64,000 nt of DNA, from positions 1 to 64,000 of the forward strand of contig NZ_JACFSZ010000012.1 in NCBI RefSeq assembly GCF_014805525.1. Reading direction: 5' to 3'. The stretch's first letter is position 1. The number at the start of each line of letters is the position of its first letter. The DNA is from Rhabdothermincola sediminis (GTDB lineage Bacteria > Actinomycetota > Acidimicrobiia > Acidimicrobiales > Acidimicrobilacustridaceae). This document shows positions 7,928-60,436 of this stretch, piece by piece. Under the pieces are notes generated by a model that was not told the DNA's origin, ran no database searches, and saw nothing but the letters and a program-made list of their open reading frames with translations. The position numbers and the translations under genes are program-made.

Positions 7928-8431
7928 TCACCGAGCCGGCTGGCTGAAACCCCGGGGGTGCGGGGCCGAGCTCCGCTCGGTGCCCGGTCCCGGACCTCCC
8001 GCCCGCCGGGCCAGGAACGGCACCACGGGAGCGTGGCCCGCTGCTTCCTCGCCGGCGAGGAAGCGCCGGAGCGCGGCGGCCATCTTCGCGGCCCGTTGCT
8101 TGGCGGTGGCGGCTCGCGGCCCCTCGAAGTGTGCGTCGACCGTCGCCGCGAACAGCTCCAGCCAACGCTCGAAGTGTGCGTCGGTGAACGGGAACCGCTG
8201 GTGGGCGGGCTCGTGGGCCCGCAGGGGGTTTCCCGTATAGCCACGCTCACCGAGCAGCTGCCACGACCAGAAGTCGGTCAGGGTGGCGATGTGTGCCGGC
8301 CAGTCCACGCCCATCCCCTCGAAGATGGGTCCGAGCAGGTCATCGGTCGCCACGTCCCGGTAGAAGGCGTGCACCAGCAGTTCGACGTGCTCCCGGATGT
8401 CGAGATCGCGGGGCGTGGGCTCGCTGGTCAT
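7928..8431 (-). CDS. Group III truncated haemoglobin
   Basis: This is a 167-residue small globin. HVELLVHAFYRDVATDDLLGPIF and DFWSWQLLGERGYTGNP, followed by HQRFPFTDAHFERWLELF, match group III (P-type) truncated globins; the proximal haem His is probably in the AHFERW helix region. Members bind O2 or NO and have been linked to NO handling. The last 45 residues are a low-complexity extension. Its ATG overlaps the stop of the RIC gene (ATGA), so the two are translationally coupled. It is the last gene of a likely NO-response operon. Confidence 0.85.
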   Translation of the reverse strand: MTSEPTPRDLDIREHVELLVHAFYRDVATDDLLGPIFEGMGVDWPAHIATLTDFWSWQLLGERGYTGNPLRAHEPAHQRFPFTDAHFERWLELFAATVDAHFEGPRAATAKQRAAKMAAALRRFLAGEEAAGHAPVVPFLARRAGGPGPGTERSSAPHPRGFSQPAR

Positions 8432-28705: not shown

Positions 28706-30300
28706 CCGGATCGGTCCCGCAGCTCGTACTTGAGGACCTTCCCGCTGGCGTTGAGCGGGAAGGCCTCCACCACCTCCACCGAGCGTGGGACCTTGAAGTT
28801 GGCCATGCGCTCCCGGCACCACCCGATCAGGGCGTCGGGGTCGATCTCGGCGCCCGGGCGCGGGATCACGAACGCCTTGCCGACCTCACCGAGGCGGTGG
28901 TCGGGCACGCCGACCACCGCCACCTGGGCGATCGAGGGATGCTCCATCATGATGTTCTCGATCTCGGCGGGATAGGCGTTGAACCCCCCGACGATGAACA
29001 TGTCCTTGAGTCGGTCGGTGATCCGCAGGTTGCCCCGCTCGTCGAGCACCCCGATGTCGCCGGTGTGCAGCCACCCGTCGGGGTCGATCGTGGCGGCGGT
29101 GGCCTCGGGGTCGTCGAGGTAGCCCTTCATGATGTTGTAGCCGCGCACCAGGACCTCGCCGGGTTCACCGGTGGGCACGGATCGGCCACGCTCGTCGACC
29201 AGCCTCACCTCGACGCCCGGGATCGGCCGCCCAGCGGTACGGGCGATGGTCTCGGGGTCGTCGTCGTGGCGACACATGGTGGCGATGCCGGTGGCTTCGG
29301 TCAGCCCGTAGCCGGTGACGATGGTGGTGAAGGTGAGCTCGTCGCGCATGCGCCGGATCATCTCCACGGGCACCGTCGCGGCGCCGGTCACCGCCAGGCG
29401 GAGGGTCGACAGGTCGTAGGAAGCGAGGTCCGGATGGTCGAGGATGGTCTGGTAGATCGCCGGCGGTCCCGGGAGCATGGTGACCCGCTCCTCCGCCACC
29501 CGGCGCATCACCGAGGGCACGTCGAACACCGGGTGGGGGATGATCGTCGCACCTTTGAGCAGACAGGCCAGGATGCCGGCCTTCAGCCCGAACGCGTGGA
29601 AGAACGGGTTGACGATCAGGTAGCGGTCGCCCTCGCGCAGCCCGACCACGCTGGCCCAGCTGTCGTAGGCCCGGATCGACGCCCCGTGGGTGAGCATGGC
29701 GCCCTTGGGTCGACCGGTCGTGCCGGAGGTGAACAGGATGTCGCACACGTCGTCGCTGCGGATGGCCCGGACCCGCTCGAGGACCTGCGACCGGTCGATG
29801 GCGTCCCCGCGATCGAGGAAGCCCTGCCAGCCGATGCACCCCCCCGGCACCGAGCCCCCCACCACAACGGTCTCGGCCAGTGCCGGCAGCTCCTGGCCTC
29901 GGAGCAGCTCGACGTAGTCGGTGTCGAGGAAGTCGGTCACGGTGAACAGCAGGCGTGCCCCCGAGCGCCGCAGGATGTAGGCGGCCTCGTGCCCTTTGAA
30001 CCGGGTGTTGAGGGGCACCACGACTCCGCCCGCCCGGTAGGTGCCGAGCGCGGCGATCGCCCACTCGGCTCGGTTCGGTGCCCAGATCGCCACCCGTTCG
30101 CCAGGCCGGATCCCCGAGGCCACGAGGGCCCGAGCCGCTCGGTCGGCCTGCTCCAGCAGGCCCTCGAAGCTCAGTCGCAGGTCACCGTCGACGAGTGCCT
30201 CGCGGCCGGCGAAGCGGGCCGCGGCCCGTTCGAGCACCAGCGGCACCGATGGCGGCAGGTCCGGCTGTTCCTCGCCCCGCTCGGCAGCACCGTCAGCCAC
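28702..30300 (-). CDS. Acyl-CoA ligase (FadD3-like AMP-binding enzyme)
   Basis: This 532-residue ligase activates a carboxylic acid to its CoA thioester with ATP. Core motifs are DILFTSGTTGRPKGAML (about 188), YGLTEATGIATM (about 335), GWLHTGDIGVLDERGNLRITDRLKDMF (about 410) and the catalytic Lys in LNASGKVLKYEL near the C-terminus. It resembles FadD3-type enzymes that act on partly degraded steroid rings, but substrate cannot be read. GTG 30300 is chosen for the AGGG 6 bases upstream. It is first in the minus-strand run and diverges from the beta-oxidation operon across a 214-base gap. Confidence 0.88.
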   Translation of the reverse strand: MADGAAERGEEQPDLPPSVPLVLERAAARFAGREALVDGDLRLSFEGLLEQADRAARALVASGIRPGERVAIWAPNRAEWAIAALGTYRAGGVVVPLNTRFKGHEAAYILRRSGARLLFTVTDFLDTDYVELLRGQELPALAETVVVGGSVPGGCIGWQGFLDRGDAIDRSQVLERVRAIRSDDVCDILFTSGTTGRPKGAMLTHGASIRAYDSWASVVGLREGDRYLIVNPFFHAFGLKAGILACLLKGATIIPHPVFDVPSVMRRVAEERVTMLPGPPAIYQTILDHPDLASYDLSTLRLAVTGAATVPVEMIRRMRDELTFTTIVTGYGLTEATGIATMCRHDDDPETIARTAGRPIPGVEVRLVDERGRSVPTGEPGEVLVRGYNIMKGYLDDPEATAATIDPDGWLHTGDIGVLDERGNLRITDRLKDMFIVGGFNAYPAEIENIMMEHPSIAQVAVVGVPDHRLGEVGKAFVIPRPGAEIDPDALIGWCRERMANFKVPRSVEVVEAFPLNASGKVLKYELRDRSG

Positions 30301-47988: not shown

Positions 47989-48570
47989 TCAGCGGCTCAG
48001 GCCGCGCACGATGTGGGACTGGACGAAGCGCCGGACGGCCTCGGGGTCATCGAGGTCGACGGCCACCGAGGGCATGAGGACCAGCGAGAGCAGGAGCCGC
48101 ACGATCCACTCGGCGGCAGCCTGGTGGTCGAGATCATCACGGATCTCCCCTCGGGCCGCCGCCCGGGCGAGGAAGGGTTGCCAGAAGTCCACCCATCGCT
48201 CCACGAGGGAGGAGCTGCGAGCGGTGAGGAGGATGGCGAGGATCGAGTCTTCTTCTCCGAGCGGCAGGGTGAGCTGCTCGTCGTCGACGTGTTCCCGGAT
48301 GAACACTGCGGCCTCAGCGACCTGCGCGGCCAGCGAGCGGCGCCGGGCAACTGCTGGTCGGGACCCGGCGACGAACCGCTCGGCGACTCGCTCGAGCACG
48401 GCGTCGATGAGCGCATCGCGATCGGCGAAGTAGCGGTAGACGGACCCGCGGGAGACGCCGGCCCGCCTCGCCACCTCCCCGACGGACAGATGCCGCAGGC
48501 CGAGGCGTTGCAGGCAGGCCTCCGCGGTGTCGAGGATCCGCTCGTCGGTGGGATGGTCGGAGCGCTGCAC
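47989..48570 (-). CDS. TetR-family regulator A
   Basis: This 193-residue repressor starts at GTG 48570. HTH region is RILDTAEACLQRLGLRHLSVGEVARRAGVSRGSVYRYFADRDALIDAVLER, split over residues 11-61. The C-terminal helices bind an unknown ligand. It is divergent to an SDR by only 28 bases, and upstream of the LLM gene on the same strand, which marks both as likely targets. Confidence 0.88.
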   Translation of the reverse strand: MQRSDHPTDERILDTAEACLQRLGLRHLSVGEVARRAGVSRGSVYRYFADRDALIDAVLERVAERFVAGSRPAVARRRSLAAQVAEAAVFIREHVDDEQLTLPLGEEDSILAILLTARSSSLVERWVDFWQPFLARAAARGEIRDDLDHQAAAEWIVRLLLSLVLMPSVAVDLDDPEAVRRFVQSHIVRGLSR

Positions 48571-48598
48571 AACTGGACATCTGATATACAAGTGTTCA
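48571..48598. promoter_or_regulatory. Divergent promoter region shared by TetR A and SDR genes
   Basis: These 28 bases, the AT-richest patch here, are all that separates two start codons. TATACA (48585-48590) on the plus strand and TATATC on the minus strand overlap as -10 elements. Transcripts would start within a few bases of the start codons, so both mRNAs look leaderless. An imperfect ACTTG/CCAGT dyad may be the operator. Confidence 0.5.
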
Positions 48599-49387
48599 AT
48601 GACCGGTGACAAGGGTCGGTTGGCCGGGAAGGTGGTCCTGGTCACGGGCGCGGCGTCGGGGATCGGCGCGGCGTGCGTCCATCGGTTCCACGGGGAAGGC
48701 GCGATCGTGGCAGGCCTCGACGTGGCGGAGGTCAGCGCATCGCCGGTCGACGTCATGCCGGTCGACGTCCGTGACGAGGAGGCCGTCCAGGACGCGATCG
48801 ACGAGCTCGCCGCTCGTCACGGGAGGCTCGACGGGGTGGTGAACGCGGCCGGTGTGGCCGGTGGTGGCGCGGCTCACACGCTGGATCGCCAGGAGTGGGA
48901 TCGGGTCCTGGATGTGAACCTCACGGGCACCTGGCTGGTGTGCAAGCACGCGATCGCGGCCATGCTCCGCCAGGAGCCCGTCGACGGGGAGCGGGGAGCG
49001 ATCGTCAACCTGGCGAGCGTCGAAGGTCTCGAAGGCACCGCTGGCGGCAGCGCCTACAACGCGTCCAAGGGCGGGGTGGTGATGCTCACCAAGAACCTCG
49101 CCATCGACTACGGCGGCCAGGGGGTACGAGCCAATGCGATCTGCCCCGGCTTCATCGAGACGCCGCTGACCGAGTCCGTCTACTCCTCGGCTGGCATGGA
49201 AGCGGTGCGTGAGCAGGTCCGGCGTGAGCACAAGCTCGGGCGCCTAGGCCGGCCCGAGGAGGTGGCTGCCGTGGCGCTGTTCCTGATCTCCGCGGACGCG
49301 TCGTTCGTGACCGGTCACGCACTGGTGGTGGACGGCGGATACACGGCCGGTCGCGATCACGGCGTCACGGAGCTGCTAGGCCTGTAG
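48599..49387 (+). CDS. Short-chain dehydrogenase/reductase
   Basis: This 262-residue SDR starts at ATG 48599. It has the cofactor loop VTGAASGIGAACVHRF, AGVAGGG, Ser in NLASVEGLEGTAGG, Tyr-Lys of AYNASKGG, and a C-terminus VTGHALVVDGGYTAGR. It is a regulated target of the divergent TetR by position. The next gene begins 3 bases after its stop. Confidence 0.9.
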   Translation: MTGDKGRLAGKVVLVTGAASGIGAACVHRFHGEGAIVAGLDVAEVSASPVDVMPVDVRDEEAVQDAIDELAARHGRLDGVVNAAGVAGGGAAHTLDRQEWDRVLDVNLTGTWLVCKHAIAAMLRQEPVDGERGAIVNLASVEGLEGTAGGSAYNASKGGVVMLTKNLAIDYGGQGVRANAICPGFIETPLTESVYSSAGMEAVREQVRREHKLGRLGRPEEVAAVALFLISADASFVTGHALVVDGGYTAGRDHGVTELLGL

Positions 49388-49390
49388 TCG

Positions 49391-49984
49391 GTGCGCCAGG
49401 AGATCCTCGACACCGCGCTGCGGCTCATGGCGCAACGTGGCTACACGGCGACGTCGATGCGGGCCCTGGCCGAGGCGTGCGGCTGCAACGTGGCCATCCT
49501 CTACCGCCATTTCCCGTCCAAGGAGGCGATTCTCGAAGCGATCGTCGAGCAGCGCCGTGAACGCGTGTTCCAGGGGCGGGCCCCGGTCCGGCGGGGACGA
49601 GACGACGAGGCGACCCTGACCCGGTTGCTGGTCGCCCTCCTCGATCGGGACGTCGAATACGAGTACATCTACCGGATCATGCTGGGTGAGGGCATGCGCT
49701 CGAATCCGGCTGCCGTCAAGGCCCGGGACGAGCTGTGGCGCTCGACCGAGCGGGCTTATCGGCGGTGGATCGTCGAGCTGTTCCCGCAGTTGACGGGCAG
49801 CTCCCGGGTGGGCCCGCTGGCACGGACGCTTCGTACCCTGGTGCAGGGCACCTACGGCGAGTTGGTGATGGTGCCACCCGAGGCTCGAGCACGTGCTCTG
49901 CGGCGCCGGTCCCGCGAGCTGGCCGGGGTGCTCGCGCCTGCGCTGGTGGTTGACCCTAGAGGTAGTACACGACGAGCTCGGTGA
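49391..49984 (+). CDS. TetR-family regulator B
   Basis: This 197-residue repressor starts at GTG. The N-terminal HTH is ILDTALRLMAQRGYTATSMRALAEACGCNVAILYRHFPSKEAILEAI, split across residues 4-50. It is co-transcribed with the SDR just before it. Its 3' end overlaps by 29 bases with the convergent NTF2-like gene. Which operator it uses is unclear; the palindrome at 51.56 kb is a candidate. Confidence 0.87.
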   Translation: MRQEILDTALRLMAQRGYTATSMRALAEACGCNVAILYRHFPSKEAILEAIVEQRRERVFQGRAPVRRGRDDEATLTRLLVALLDRDVEYEYIYRIMLGEGMRSNPAAVKARDELWRSTERAYRRWIVELFPQLTGSSRVGPLARTLRTLVQGTYGELVMVPPEARARALRRRSRELAGVLAPALVVDPRGSTRRAR

Positions 49985-50309
49985 TGGCCCCGTTGCCGTC
50001 CACGGTGAACACGTCCAGCGTGCGGAGGGGCGCGGCGTCGGCGTCGGCGAGCGGGCTGGTGGCGAAGAACTCGAGCATGGCGGTGCGGTCCTCGGCCACC
50101 AGCCGCCCGGGTCGTAGCCTCGCTCGTCCAGCGAAGACGATCTCCTCGTAGAAGCGGCGGATCGACGCGTGACCCTCGTAGCGCCCGGTCGGGTGCAGCA
50201 GGGTGGCGTGCTCGTCGAAGAGCGCGAGGAGGCGCTCGCCGTCGGCGTCGTTCACCGCGTCGACGTAGCGCTGGGCGGCCCGGCGAGCCAGGGCGTCGGG
50301 CCCGCTCAT
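49956..50309 (-). CDS. NTF2-like (SnoaL/ketosteroid-isomerase fold) protein
   Basis: This 117-residue cone-shaped alpha+beta protein has YVDAVNDADGERLLALFDEHATLLHP and HASIRRFYEEIVF, then beta strands ending ITELVVYYL. Members isomerise steroids, hydrate epoxides, or cyclise polyketides. Its ATG overlaps the P450 stop (ATGA), so both are coupled and may act on the same molecule. Confidence 0.83.
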   Translation of the reverse strand: MSGPDALARRAAQRYVDAVNDADGERLLALFDEHATLLHPTGRYEGHASIRRFYEEIVFAGRARLRPGRLVAEDRTAMLEFFATSPLADADAAPLRTLDVFTVDGNGAITELVVYYL

Positions 50310-51517
50310 CCGAGGAACCTCACGGGCATGTGCCGCACACCGGTGTGCTTGTTCGAGCGCGTCCATTCCACGGGTCCGGCCAGCTCGCAGGCCCGCACCC
50401 GGTCGAGCAGGGCCTCGAAGACCAACCGGATCTCGAGCCGGGCCAGATTCGCCCCGAGACAGAAGTGCCCGCCGTGGCCGAAGGCGAGATGGCGGTTCGG
50501 CTCCCGGGCCACGTCGAAGCGGAAGGGGTCGGGGAAGACCTCCTCGTCGCGGTTGGCCGATGCCCACCACAGCGTGACCTTGTCGCCAGCAGCGATGTCC
50601 TGATCGCGAACGGTCACGTCGCGGGTCGCGGTCCGGCGGTTGTAGGTGGTCGAGGAGGCCCACCGCAGGATCTCCTCCACCGCGGTGGGCATCAGCGATC
50701 GGTCGTTGCGCAGCGCCTCCCACTGATCCGGATGCTCGATGAGTGCCAGCATGCCGACCGCGATCGAGTTGCGGGTGGTCTCGCTCCCGGCCGCGATGAG
50801 CAGGTTGAAGAACATCTGCAGCTCGAGGTCGGTGAGGAAGCTCGCGTGAACGACTGCGGAGATGATGCCGTCGTCAGGAGTGGCGCGCTTTTGGTCGATG
50901 AGCCAGGTGCCGTACTCGAACATCGCGGCCGACGCGGCCGTCGCCCGGTCGTCCTGCTCGCCGAGCTCCCGCCCGTCGTAGTCGAGAGTCGCATTGGCCC
51001 ACTCGAAGAGCCGGTGGCGATCGTCCTGTGGCACCCCCATGAGGCGGGCCGCGGCCTGCAGCGGCAGCTCGGCCGCGACGTCGAGGAGGAAGTCACACGA
51101 TTCCGCTCCCACCGCGGCGTCGACGATCAACTCGGTGCGCGCCCGCAGCTCGGGCTCCATGGCCCGAAGCGCCCTGGGGGTCACCGCCGGGGTGACGACC
51201 TTGCGGATCTGCTGATGGCGGGGATCGTCCATCATGTTGAGGAGCACGCCCGCCGCGAAGCCGGAGGGGAGGTCTTCGATGAGGGTTCCTCCGCCTTCCC
51301 GCCCGCCGCCTGTGTGGGAGGAGAACGTATCGCCGTCGGACGCGATCGCGACGATGTCCGGGTGGCGGGAGACCACCCAGAATCCCTCGCCGTCGGGGGT
51401 GTGCTCGGTCGGGGGGTGCCACCAGACGGGCGCCTCGCGGCGGAGCTCGGTGAACACGTCGTGGGGGAAGCCCTGCGCGAACGAGTCGAGGTCGGTGAGG
51501 TCGATCGCCGGTCGCAT
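50306..51517 (-). CDS. Cytochrome P450
   Basis: This 403-residue haem monooxygenase has the I-helix oxygen-binding AAGSETTRNSI (about 240-250), the K-helix ExxR in EEILRW (about 285), and the haem loop FGHGGHFCLGANLAR with Cys near residue 352. It resembles the bacterial P450s that hydroxylate steroid side chains or terpenes. Redox partners are not adjacent. Start ATG has GAGAGGGGG upstream. It is the first gene of a P450-NTF2 pair, under the palindrome at 51557-51576. Confidence 0.93.
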   Translation of the reverse strand: MRPAIDLTDLDSFAQGFPHDVFTELRREAPVWWHPPTEHTPDGEGFWVVSRHPDIVAIASDGDTFSSHTGGGREGGGTLIEDLPSGFAAGVLLNMMDDPRHQQIRKVVTPAVTPRALRAMEPELRARTELIVDAAVGAESCDFLLDVAAELPLQAAARLMGVPQDDRHRLFEWANATLDYDGRELGEQDDRATAASAAMFEYGTWLIDQKRATPDDGIISAVVHASFLTDLELQMFFNLLIAAGSETTRNSIAVGMLALIEHPDQWEALRNDRSLMPTAVEEILRWASSTTYNRRTATRDVTVRDQDIAAGDKVTLWWASANRDEEVFPDPFRFDVAREPNRHLAFGHGGHFCLGANLARLEIRLVFEALLDRVRACELAGPVEWTRSNKHTGVRHMPVRFLG

Positions 51518-51556
51518 GCGGCCCCCTCTCCGGCTCCACCACGAGCCGGGATCACG

Positions 51557-51576
51557 GTGTAAACGAGCGTTTACAC
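51557..51576. promoter_or_regulatory. Perfect 9+9 palindrome, likely TetR operator
   Basis: GTGTAAACG-AG-CGTTTACAC, with no mismatch, lies in the 73-base gap between the divergent P450 and YibE/F genes, 39 bases from the first and 14 from the second. Size and symmetry are typical for TetR-family dimers. TetR B (49.4 kb) is the closest candidate regulator. Confidence 0.75.
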
Positions 51577-51590
51577 AGGATACTCCAGGG

Positions 51591-52805
51591 ATGACGACCG
51601 GTCACGACCATCACGGCGGCGTCCTCCTCGAGCTCCCCGAGCGGCGCTGGCAACTGAGTCACACCGTTCTCACGGCCGCCGTCGCCATCGGCGTGCTCGC
51701 GCTGGTGGGGCTGATGGTCTGGTGGCCGCGCGGGGAAGGCCCCGTGTTGAACCCTGGTGGCACCCCCCTCCGCTACGTCGACGCCATCGTCCAGTCGGTC
51801 ACGATCGAGGAGTGCCCCGGTCTCGAGGCGAGCGGGGCACTCACCGACTGCCAGCGGGTCACCGCCGCCACCGCCGACGGGGACACCGCCCGCTTCACGA
51901 TCTTCGCCACGGACTTCGACAAGCCGACCCTCGTGGCCGGGGATCGGGTGGTGCTCGCGCGCAACCCGTTCGCACCTTCCGAGTATCGCTACAGCTTCTC
52001 GGACTTCCAGCGCACGCAACCGCTGCTCCTGCTCGGCGTGCTGTTCGTCGTCGCGGTGGTGCTGTTCGGGCGGTGGCAGGGTGTGCGCGCCCTGGCCGGC
52101 ATCGTGGTGAGCTTCGTGGTCCTGCTCGCCTTCCTCCTCCCGTCGCTCCTCCGCGGGAATCCCGCCCTCCCCGTCGCCCTGGTGGCGACGGTGATCATCG
52201 CCTTCCTCGCCCTGTACCTGGCTCACGGCGTGCGCCTGACCACGACCGTCGCTCTGGTCGGAACGCTGGCCAGCCTCGCCGTGATCGCGGTGCTCGGGCA
52301 GGCCTTCGTCGGCTTCACCCGGTTGACCGGTCTCACCGGTGAGGAAGCGCAGATCCTGCGGATCACCGCCGAGGCGGTCGACCTACGTGGATTGCTGGTG
52401 GCCGGCATCGTCGTCGGAGCCCTCGGGGTGCTCGACGACGTGACCGTCACGCAGGTCTCCGCGGTGGTGCAGCTCCGGCGGGCGAACCCATCCATGTCGA
52501 GGGTGGAGCTCTACCGCTCGGCGTTGAAGATCGGCCGTGACCACATCGCATCCACCGTCAACACGCTCGTGCTGGCCTACGCCGGGGCGTCGCTGCCGAT
52601 CCTGCTGCTGTATGCGGAGGCCGGGCAGCCCTGGGCTCGGGTGACCGCGGGGGAGCTGGTGGCGATGGAGATCGTGAGGACCCTCGTGGGCTCCATCGGC
52701 TTGATCGTCGCGGTGCCGATCACCACCGCGCTCGCCGCGGTGCTCCTCTCACCACGACCCACCGCCACCACCGCCGCCGCCACCACCAGCGGAGCCACCA
52801 CTTGA
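51591..52805 (+). CDS. YibE/F-like membrane protein
   Basis: This 404-residue polytopic protein has a first helix (about 25-45), an extracytoplasmic beta-rich domain (about 55-135), then at least six more hydrophobic segments. QPLLLLGVLFVVAVVLFGRWQG, LALYLAHGVRL, and GALGVLDDVTVTQVSAVVQL are YibE/F family blocks. The family is predicted to be transport-related, but with no known substrate. ATG 51591 is used. The His-rich MTTGHDHHGG start may bind metal. It overlaps the next gene's end by 57 bases, where repeats give it a Thr/Ala-rich tail. Confidence 0.85.
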   Translation: MTTGHDHHGGVLLELPERRWQLSHTVLTAAVAIGVLALVGLMVWWPRGEGPVLNPGGTPLRYVDAIVQSVTIEECPGLEASGALTDCQRVTAATADGDTARFTIFATDFDKPTLVAGDRVVLARNPFAPSEYRYSFSDFQRTQPLLLLGVLFVVAVVLFGRWQGVRALAGIVVSFVVLLAFLLPSLLRGNPALPVALVATVIIAFLALYLAHGVRLTTTVALVGTLASLAVIAVLGQAFVGFTRLTGLTGEEAQILRITAEAVDLRGLLVAGIVVGALGVLDDVTVTQVSAVVQLRRANPSMSRVELYRSALKIGRDHIASTVNTLVLAYAGASLPILLLYAEAGQPWARVTAGELVAMEIVRTLVGSIGLIVAVPITTALAAVLLSPRPTATTAAATTSGATT

Positions 52806-57978: not shown

Positions 57979-59925
57979 ATGGCTTTCGACCCTGCAGACG
58001 AATGGTTCCGGCGGCCGGACGTGTGGTCCGGTGTGGTGCTCGGTGCGTGGGTCGCCGCGGAGTCGTTCGGTCCGTCGCTCATGCCGCGCACCACGCTGGA
58101 CCAGGCACTGGTGTCGGGTGCCTCGGCGGCCACCGGGTTCGCGGTGGGGAACGCGACGTACGGGTTGATCGGTCGCGAGGTGGAGGTGCGTGACCAGCCC
58201 CTCGCATTCGGTGCTGCCCTTGCGGCGGCGTTGACCGCGAAGCTGGTGCTCGCTGACGCGGCGGCCCGCAGCCTCCCGGCGGCCACGCTTCGGGCCATGG
58301 CCGGCGGGCTCGCCGGTGGTTCGGCGGCGTGCGGCGCGGTGGCGCTGGTGCGCAACGCCGAGCGACCGGGCGTGACGGCGGGGGTGCTGGCTTCGATCGG
58401 CGCGGCTGCCGGGTCGGTGGTGCTGTTCCGATCCATCCGTGACCAGGTGGCACGCCGCGACGACATCGATCCACCGCCCCCCCGCCCGCTCCCTGCGGTG
58501 GCGCAGAGCGCGACGGTGGCGGCGCTGCTCGCCGCGGTGGTCAACGGCTACCGCAAGAGCGGCCAGGCGATGACCCGCGTGCTGCGCCGCCGGATCGGGC
58601 TCTCGCCCGGCATCAGCGAGGTCGGCGGGCGAACCGCGGCGACGATGGCGTGGGCCGCGGTCATCACCGCGTTCGCCGACACCTTCGTGCGGGGGATGGA
58701 GCTCTACGACCGGGTCATGGACCCTGGCTATGACACCCCACCCGACACGCCCGCGTGCTCGGCCGGCCCCGGCTCGGCGGTGAGCTTCTCCAGGACCGGT
58801 CGCCAAGGCCGGCGCTTCCTGCTCAACCGGCCCTCGGCCGACGACATCCACTCGGTCATGGGGACCCCGGCACGGGCCGAGCCCGTGCGGGTGTTCGTGG
58901 GCTATGACGCGGCGCGCACTCCCGAGGACCGGGTGGCGCTCGCGCTCCGGGAGCTCGAGCGGGCTGGCGCCTTCGACCGTTCGATCCTGGTGGTCGGCTG
59001 CCCGGCTGGCACGGGCTACGTCAACACCGTGCCGTTCGAGGCCGTCGACCACCTGGCTCTCGGCGATGCGGCCGGTGTCGCCGTGCAGTACGAGCGGCTC
59101 CCCTCCCTGCTGGCGCTGCACCGCACCGGCGTCGGTGGCGAGCACGTCCGGCTCCTGCTGGCCGGCATCCGTGACGCGCTCGCGGAGCGACCCCCCTCGT
59201 GCCGGCCCCGGGTCGTGCTGTACGGAGAGAGCCTGGGGGCTTGGGCCGGCCAGAACGCGTTCCTGCACCGCGGCCTCCGCGGGCTCGACGAACTCGGGGT
59301 GCAGCGGGCGCTGTTCGTCGGGACCCCGTACTACAGCGGTTGGCTCCATGAAGTGCTCGGGGGGAGGGACGTCACGCCGGGGAGCGTGTTGGAGGTCCCC
59401 TCAGCGCTGCCACTCCGGTCGCTGAGCCCCGCGCAGCGGGCCGCTCTGCGGGTCGTGCTGCTCACCCACCACAACGACCCCGTCCGCAAGATCAATCTGG
59501 GTTTGCTCGTGCAACGTCCGGATTGGCTCTCACATCAGCGGCCGCCGACGGTGCCGGCCCGGCAGCGATTCCGGCCGATGATCACCGGGTTCCAGACCAT
59601 CGTCGACACCGCCAATGCCACCCATCAGGTACCGGGGGTGTTCCGGGCGACCGGGCACGACTACCGGCTCGACGTGCCCGCAGTGGTGCGAGAGGTGTTC
59701 GAGCTCCCGTCGCCCACCCCTGGGCAGTGGGAGCGGTTGATGACCAAGCTCCAGGACGAGGAGGCGGCACGCGCTGCACGGTTCCAGCTCCCCCGGAAGG
59801 AAGACGGAGCGGACGTCGAGCGTCGGGTCAGCGGGACGCGAGACCCCGCAGGCTCGCCGAGCACAGCTCGACGAAGGTGGCGGTCACCTCGTCTCGGGGC
59901 AGGCCCCGGTCGAGCCAGGCGGTGA
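57979..59925 (+). CDS. Membrane-linked alpha/beta-hydrolase family protein (PF10081/PF15420)
   Basis: This 648-residue protein has several hydrophobic segments in its N-terminal ~200 residues, then a cytoplasmic or exported alpha/beta-hydrolase. The nucleophile is in VVLYGESLGAWAGQNAF (Ser about 417); LTHHNDPVRK may hold the Asp and TGHDYRLD the His. It is found in actinobacteria, with unknown substrate. The last ~35 residues are Arg/Pro-rich and run into the opposing TetR gene (98-base overlap). The original stop may have been lost by a small shift. Confidence 0.82.
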   Translation: MAFDPADEWFRRPDVWSGVVLGAWVAAESFGPSLMPRTTLDQALVSGASAATGFAVGNATYGLIGREVEVRDQPLAFGAALAAALTAKLVLADAAARSLPAATLRAMAGGLAGGSAACGAVALVRNAERPGVTAGVLASIGAAAGSVVLFRSIRDQVARRDDIDPPPPRPLPAVAQSATVAALLAAVVNGYRKSGQAMTRVLRRRIGLSPGISEVGGRTAATMAWAAVITAFADTFVRGMELYDRVMDPGYDTPPDTPACSAGPGSAVSFSRTGRQGRRFLLNRPSADDIHSVMGTPARAEPVRVFVGYDAARTPEDRVALALRELERAGAFDRSILVVGCPAGTGYVNTVPFEAVDHLALGDAAGVAVQYERLPSLLALHRTGVGGEHVRLLLAGIRDALAERPPSCRPRVVLYGESLGAWAGQNAFLHRGLRGLDELGVQRALFVGTPYYSGWLHEVLGGRDVTPGSVLEVPSALPLRSLSPAQRAALRVVLLTHHNDPVRKINLGLLVQRPDWLSHQRPPTVPARQRFRPMITGFQTIVDTANATHQVPGVFRATGHDYRLDVPAVVREVFELPSPTPGQWERLMTKLQDEEAARAARFQLPRKEDGADVERRVSGTRDPAGSPSTARRRWRSPRLGAGPGRARR

Positions 59926-60436
59926 TCAACCCCAGCGTGCCGGTGAGGAACACACTGGAGGCCACGAGCGCGGTCGGCACCGGGACGCCGAACTCCTCGT
60001 GGATGAGTGCCGCGAAGTAGTCCTCGACGTACCGGTTCCGCTCGCGGCGGCGTTGCTCGAAGGCGCCGCCACCGAGCCGAGCTTGCATGAGGATGGTCAG
60101 GACGTTGCCGCGCTCGGTCACGGTGTCGAGGTAGGTCTCGAGCATGGCGCGGATGCGATCGTCGAACGACGACAGACCGGAGGTCCGTTCGTCGATGCGC
60201 TGGTCGTAGCGGCGTGTCTCCCGTTCGAACAGCGCGGCGAGCAGGTCGTCGCGGTTGGTGAAGTAGCGGTAGCCGAGTGCCTTGCTGACCCCGGCCTCAG
60301 CGGCGAGGCCTTCCATCGTGAGCGCTTCCACGCCGTGCTCGACCACGATGCGGGCCGCGATGTCGAGGAACAGCTCACGTCGCTCGTCGCGGCTGAGCCG
60401 GGTGCGCCTCACGATGGTCGTGCCCGCCTTCGTCAC
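59828..60436 (-). CDS. TetR-family regulator C
   Basis: This 202-residue repressor starts at GTG. The HTH is in ELFLDIAARIVVEHGVEALTMEGLAAEAGVSKALGYRYFTNRDDLLAALFE, split across residues 20-70. The ligand domain is AlphaB-type. It diverges from crotonase 4 by 117 bases. It is a candidate for binding the palindrome at 61.45 kb. Confidence 0.88.
   Translation of the reverse strand: MTKAGTTIVRRTRLSRDERRELFLDIAARIVVEHGVEALTMEGLAAEAGVSKALGYRYFTNRDDLLAALFERETRRYDQRIDERTSGLSSFDDRIRAMLETYLDTVTERGNVLTILMQARLGGGAFEQRRRERNRYVEDYFAALIHEEFGVPVPTALVASSVFLTGTLGLITAWLDRGLPRDEVTATFVELCSASLRGLASR

Follow-up and report, generated by a model that had tools for sequence, protein, structure and literature searches.

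Local switches operated by TetR-type repressors are well known, and the one described here is not surprising in kind. In Bacillus megaterium, the TetR-type repressor BM3R1 and a 20-bp palindrome control the P450 CYP102, a system that differs from the present one in its P450 class, operator sequence, and gene order. KstR, also a TetR repressor, controls CYP125-type enzymes as part of the steroid regulon. The predicted repressor of the locus studied here, TetR-B, was tried as a KstR and rejected, with 38.8 bits against the NCBIfam equivalog cut-off of 280; unlike for KstR, its candidate site is single-copy.

In two TetR surveys, some 60-67% of the TetR genes covered have a neighbouring gene in divergent orientation (PMC3511530, PMC4482099). 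TetR-B resembles the local repressors described there in combining one TetR with a short palindrome, a nearby enzyme target and a small regulon, but is unlike most of the surveyed TetRs in being convergent with its predicted target (PMC3511530, PMC4482099). In the second survey, the Rv1255c-CYP130 locus of M. tuberculosis likewise has a TetR gene beside a P450 gene, although regulator and P450 form one putative operon there, unlike the convergent TetR-B; Rv0775, from the same species, is a TetR protein listed with a predicted motif (PMC4482099). Three occurrences of "tetr" in PMC5270475 belong to words such as tetramer. Sequence-string literature searches did not recognise the operator sequence. 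Rv0775 presumably lies a few locus numbers from cyp126 (Rv0778).

Judging from sequence comparisons, it is very likely that the palindrome discussed below is the operator through which TetR-B represses a P450 gene, together with a SnoaL-like gene, until a substrate-like ligand binds. An uncharacterised P450 of CYP125/126-like type, from an actinobacterial lineage that has been little studied, thereby gains a candidate operator and regulator. Knowing which ligand TetR-B binds would give a clue to the P450 substrate, and the single-site pair could serve as a small biosensor part.

The palindrome and the P450 unit

The window, i.e., the whole 64,000-nt stretch of Rhabdothermincola sediminis DNA that was analysed, carries at 51557-51576 the palindrome GTGTAAACGAGCGTTTACAC, which reads GTGTAAACG-AG-CGTTTACAC from the + strand and is the unstranded operator candidate. 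Its arms, of 9 bp each, are exact complements, while the 2-nt AG spacer is asymmetric; the description as an exactly symmetric 20-base palindrome, given by an earlier sequence-only reading of this DNA, thus holds for 18 of the 20 bases and fails at the central AG. That reading rightly placed it in the 73-nt divergent gap, which lies between the P450 start at 51517 (- strand) and the YibE/F ATG at 51591 (+ strand). Positions 51559-51574, inside the palindrome, form the core GTAAAC-N4-GTTTAC that is common to two loci of relatives, L070 and L072 (see below).

The predicted target is the P450 gene at 50306-51517 (- strand). Its product matches the Pfam p450 family (PF00067, 96.4 bits) and contains in its translation FGHGGHFCLG, which we take to be the P450 haem-thiolate motif; its best PDB sequence matches are CYP125MRCA (435 bits), CYP126A1 (425 bits), and CYP125 / steroid C26-monooxygenase (280-285 bits). 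Such a CYP125/126-like P450 hints at a lipid or steroid-like molecule. The predicted second gene of the unit, encoding an NTF2/SnoaL-like protein (49956-50309, - strand; SnoaL_2, 54.1 bits, cut-off 27), has an ATG that overlaps the P450 stop codon (ATGA).

Two promoter positions in the gap were inferred by eye. A putative P450 promoter spans 51577-51605 (- strand), with the -10 TATCCT (51577-51582), a 17-nt spacer and the -35 GTGACC (51600-51605), and in this reading the operator begins directly after the -10. On the + strand, a putative leaderless YibE/F -10, GATACT (51579-51584), lies 6 nt before the ATG, overlaps the presumed P450 -10, and has the palindrome directly upstream. Among 17 relatives for which the YibE/F start was set by eye, 5 likewise have A(T/G)ACT 6-8 nt ahead of the start codon, which may point to leaderless YibE/F transcription. 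A promoter scan of 51400-51700 found nothing.

Recurrence of the core with P450 and TetR-B

The sequence-only reading had proposed to look for conservation of the palindrome in relatives, and such conservation was indeed found. Scanning the genome collection once yielded 425 confirmed relatives of the P450; the best 80 of them were analysed with flanks of up to 5 kb, and the core is kept at the P450 promoter in two of these 80 loci, L070 (site GTGTAAACAATCGTTTACAC) and L072 (site TGGTAAACGTTTGTTTACAT). Both have the core at 12/12 upstream of the P450, with L072 keeping just 14 of the window's 18 arm bases; over the 400 nt upstream of the P450, L070 reaches 17/18 arm bases, L072 14/18, and the other loci among the best 80 of 425 at most 12/18. 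The remaining 78 loci reach no more than 9/12 of the core anywhere in the locus. Among the same 80 loci, L070 and L072 are also the only ones with a match to TetR-B (tblastn of window proteins, E 1e-8), whose gene lies in both behind the P450 and convergent with it. For two independent sets, such agreement would arise by chance in 1 of 3160 cases, a figure that is uncorrected for kinship and weakened by it. Six of the 80 loci have less than 1.5 kb of downstream DNA and one (L133) has no upstream DNA, such that absence there means not seen. Another 29 P450 loci with 1.5-kb flanks (L041-L069), several of which duplicate the 80, contained neither the core nor a TetR-B match.

The only three carrier loci, that of the window included, belong to three genera of one taxonomic family. 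When they are compared with the palindrome as anchor, 14-18 of its 20 positions agree, whereas upstream only 16-18 of 60 do so and downstream 17-22 of 70. By this measure, the flanks are no more alike than expected by chance, and the palindrome therefore appears to be under its own constraint. In a P450 tree, the three carriers are not monophyletic, and L070 is sister (100/95) to four rows, representing two distinct proteins, that have neither the motif nor TetR-B; operator and regulator thus appear to come or go together. Of note, the loci with both motif and TetR-B show no clustering on this tree (3 changes; 500/500 shuffles as low), and several forks near the carriers are unresolved.

All window ORFs of at least 90 aa were compared with L070 and L072. 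Matches were obtained for the P450 and TetR-B, for the NTF2/SnoaL-like protein in L072 alone, and for two SDRs in L070 alone (35-37%), the further matches being frames antisense to the P450. By this comparison, the P450 and TetR-B are the only genes common to all three loci; the NTF2/SnoaL-like protein has a 47% identical frame in L072, between P450 and TetR-B, and none in L070. In the neighbourhood of the P450/TetR-B pair, both L070 and L072 carry genes for an adenosylhomocysteinase, a polysaccharide deacetylase, and an IF-2B-family protein, the last of which we take to be mtnA-like. None of these three has a match among the window ORFs, which indicates that either the pair moved or its surroundings were rearranged.

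In the window, the predicted repressor TetR-B is encoded at 49391-49984 (+ strand), convergent with the P450 unit and starting 3 nt behind an SDR stop codon. It carries a TetR_N helix-turn-helix domain (PF00440, 69.2 bits, cut-off 24), and its predicted structure, built from just 3 sequences, has nine helices (mean pLDDT 79, pTM 0.74) in an all-helical fold with a C-terminal ligand domain. The 36 PDB structures matching at E <=0.001 are all described as TetR-family, TetR-type, or putative transcriptional regulators, with a moderate fit (TM (query) 0.41-0.61, rmsd 4.8-7.9). The three TetR-B proteins do not differ over A-C-G-C-N-V-A-I-L-Y-R-H-F, the stretch that contains the predicted recognition helix. 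The L070 copy of TetR-B (L070:6273-6770) has an in-frame loss of about 35 residues in the ligand domain, while the operator is intact; this copy may be inactive or misassembled, the options being a mutation, a repressor blind to its ligand, or an error of assembly. In none of the three carrier loci was a second core found close to the TetR-B gene, and the motif hence gives no sign of autoregulation.

Close TetR-B proteins were found in 3 of 37 family genomes. At the level of the order (397 genomes, E 1e-25), six genomes have a match including the window's own, the others being 37-40% identical; the only match in 396 genomes of the phylum (E 1e-30) is its own. The 37 family genomes gave four, two of them in the L070 and L072 genomes (shared sequence) and one a 40% match, and 60 relatives of the L072 genome, G418, gave two, G418 itself and the L070 genome, G417. 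No fourth carrier was found across these searches, and six loci with distant TetR-B homologues (L151-L156) reach at most 9/12 of the core. One of these homologues (L156; G000:C12:103515-104066), 39% identical, is encoded on the contig of the window but beyond its limits; another TetR-like match lies close to it on the opposite strand.

Predicted control of the P450 unit and of YibE/F

By analogy with general TetR behaviour, a TetR-B dimer would occupy both GTAAAC half-sites, covering the transcription start just after the putative P450 -10, and transcription of the P450-SnoaL unit would thereby be blocked. A small molecule, probably related to the substrate or product of the P450, would then act on the C-terminal domain of TetR-B and cause its release. 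The gene on the other side of the site changes from carrier to carrier, namely YibE/F in the window, an SDR / short-chain dehydrogenase gene in L070, and a polysaccharide deacetylase gene in L072, while the P450 is the constant partner (the SnoaL-like gene is present in two of three). As a result, repression of the P450 appears to be the conserved function of the site, and any effect on YibE/F would be local.

The sequence-only reading had suggested that one TetR-type repressor controls both the P450 plus NTF2 unit and the membrane protein. Its P450 half is well supported by the co-occurrence described above, which also narrows the repressor to TetR-B, while its YibE/F half is weakly supported. 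Deliberate co-regulation of the P450 unit and the YibE/F-like gene (51591-52805, + strand; PF07907, 244 bits), by TetR-B or another TetR, would be consistent with a gap of just 73 nt and with the location of the site directly upstream of GATACT, where a dimer on the site would probably shut off both promoters. Another divergent YibE/F-P450 pair is present in a genome of the same family (G208; L014:1507-4001), with a different P450, 33% identical to that of the window, and without the core. Nonetheless, co-regulation is unlikely, as YibE/F is absent beside the P450 in both relatives that keep the operator and as none of the 27 YibE/F loci of relatives that were scanned whole has the core (best 9/12; in a few of them, the contig ends close to the gene). 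That survey found 28 YibE/F matches in 23 of 61 genomes, own included; for 23 of the matches, again with that of the window among them, the DNA upstream was read, in some cases from starts set by hand.

YibE/F is thus not a partner that is conserved with the operator. With the site immediately ahead of the putative YibE/F -10, YibE/F could still be repressed as a bystander in this genome, a possibility that we rate slightly below its converse. More tentatively, and with somewhat less confidence again, TetR-B and its operator could be viewed as a self-contained one-P450 cassette, with one site per genome, gained or lost with its regulator, without a motif at the regulator gene, and indifferent to the opposite gene; in this genome, the cassette would also have captured the promoter of an unrelated membrane protein.

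Copies of the motif and other candidate regulators

The sequence-only reading had proposed to scan the genome for further copies of the palindrome and had held that a lack of them, together with no binding by any of the local TetR proteins, would refute its view. The exact 20-mer is in fact single-copy in the 3.29-Mb genome. This is nevertheless a weak criterion, because the exact core is present once in each of the three genomes searched (the genome's own, G000, and those of L070 and L072), each time at a P450 promoter. The L070 genome (also listed as G206) is rated 71% complete, and the copy number there is hence a lower bound. With one mismatch allowed, the sole extra core match in the three genomes lies in the L072 genome, within a reading frame of 857 aa. 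The 20-mer, when up to 3 mismatches are allowed, has one place in the window, against 0 in 100 shuffles, and the whole genome contains besides the true site one (20-mer) and two (18-mer) weak places, all with 3 mismatches, one of them in a frame with what we take to be a ribosomal protein S12 signature.

An order-wide search for the 20-mer with up to 2 mismatches, in a 198-genome sample from which the L070 and L072 genomes are absent, gave places in 7 genomes, own included. Four of the six others lie within long reading frames, two of which presumably also carry the S12 signature, and one is outside all frames of at least 110 aa. The last, L011:1501-1520, is the palindrome GTGTAGACGAGCGTCTACAC, which overlaps mechanical frames, has a TetR-like match about 0.45 kb away, and is possibly a related operator. 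No link to TetR-B was found for any of the six.

LacI-type operators can contain TGTAAACG-like halves, which the half-site resembles, and the site could in principle be bound by a regulator encoded elsewhere, such as a LacI-type protein. This is very unlikely, since LacI-type operators usually have a central CG with abutting halves, whereas the spacing in the window is CG-NN-CG, and since each of the three genomes has just one exact core, which is linked to TetR-B. It is even less probable that the operator belongs to one of the two other local TetR proteins, TetR-A (47989-48756) or TetR-C (59828-60436), rather than to TetR-B. Neither has a match in L070 or L072; homologues of TetR-A occur in six other P450 loci (L073, L077, L079, L090, L099, L132), all without the core, and those of TetR-C in none of the 80. 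These comparisons disfavour both and leave TetR-B as the probable repressor among the three.

Palindromes of this size are not rare across the window but are rare inside a 73-nt gap. With arms of at least 9 and spacers of 0-8, 11 are present in the whole window, against a mean of 7.5 (range 3-11) in 15 Markov simulations, while simulated 73-nt gaps contained one in 143 of 60,000 cases with the gap's own composition and in 118 of 20,000 with that of the window. Recurrence at P450 promoters is stronger evidence for the palindrome than its symmetry. Although such arms are common window-wide, we give hardly any credence to a palindrome that arose by chance or acts in RNA structure with no protein to bind it, given its reappearance at this promoter in two further genera whose flanks are not conserved, the AT-rich arms in 71% GC DNA, and the lack of any terminator-like site found in the gap. 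Two longer-armed palindromes were also seen in the window, at 8043-8064 (11-bp arms, no spacer) and at 28893-28921 (12-bp arms, 5-nt spacer).
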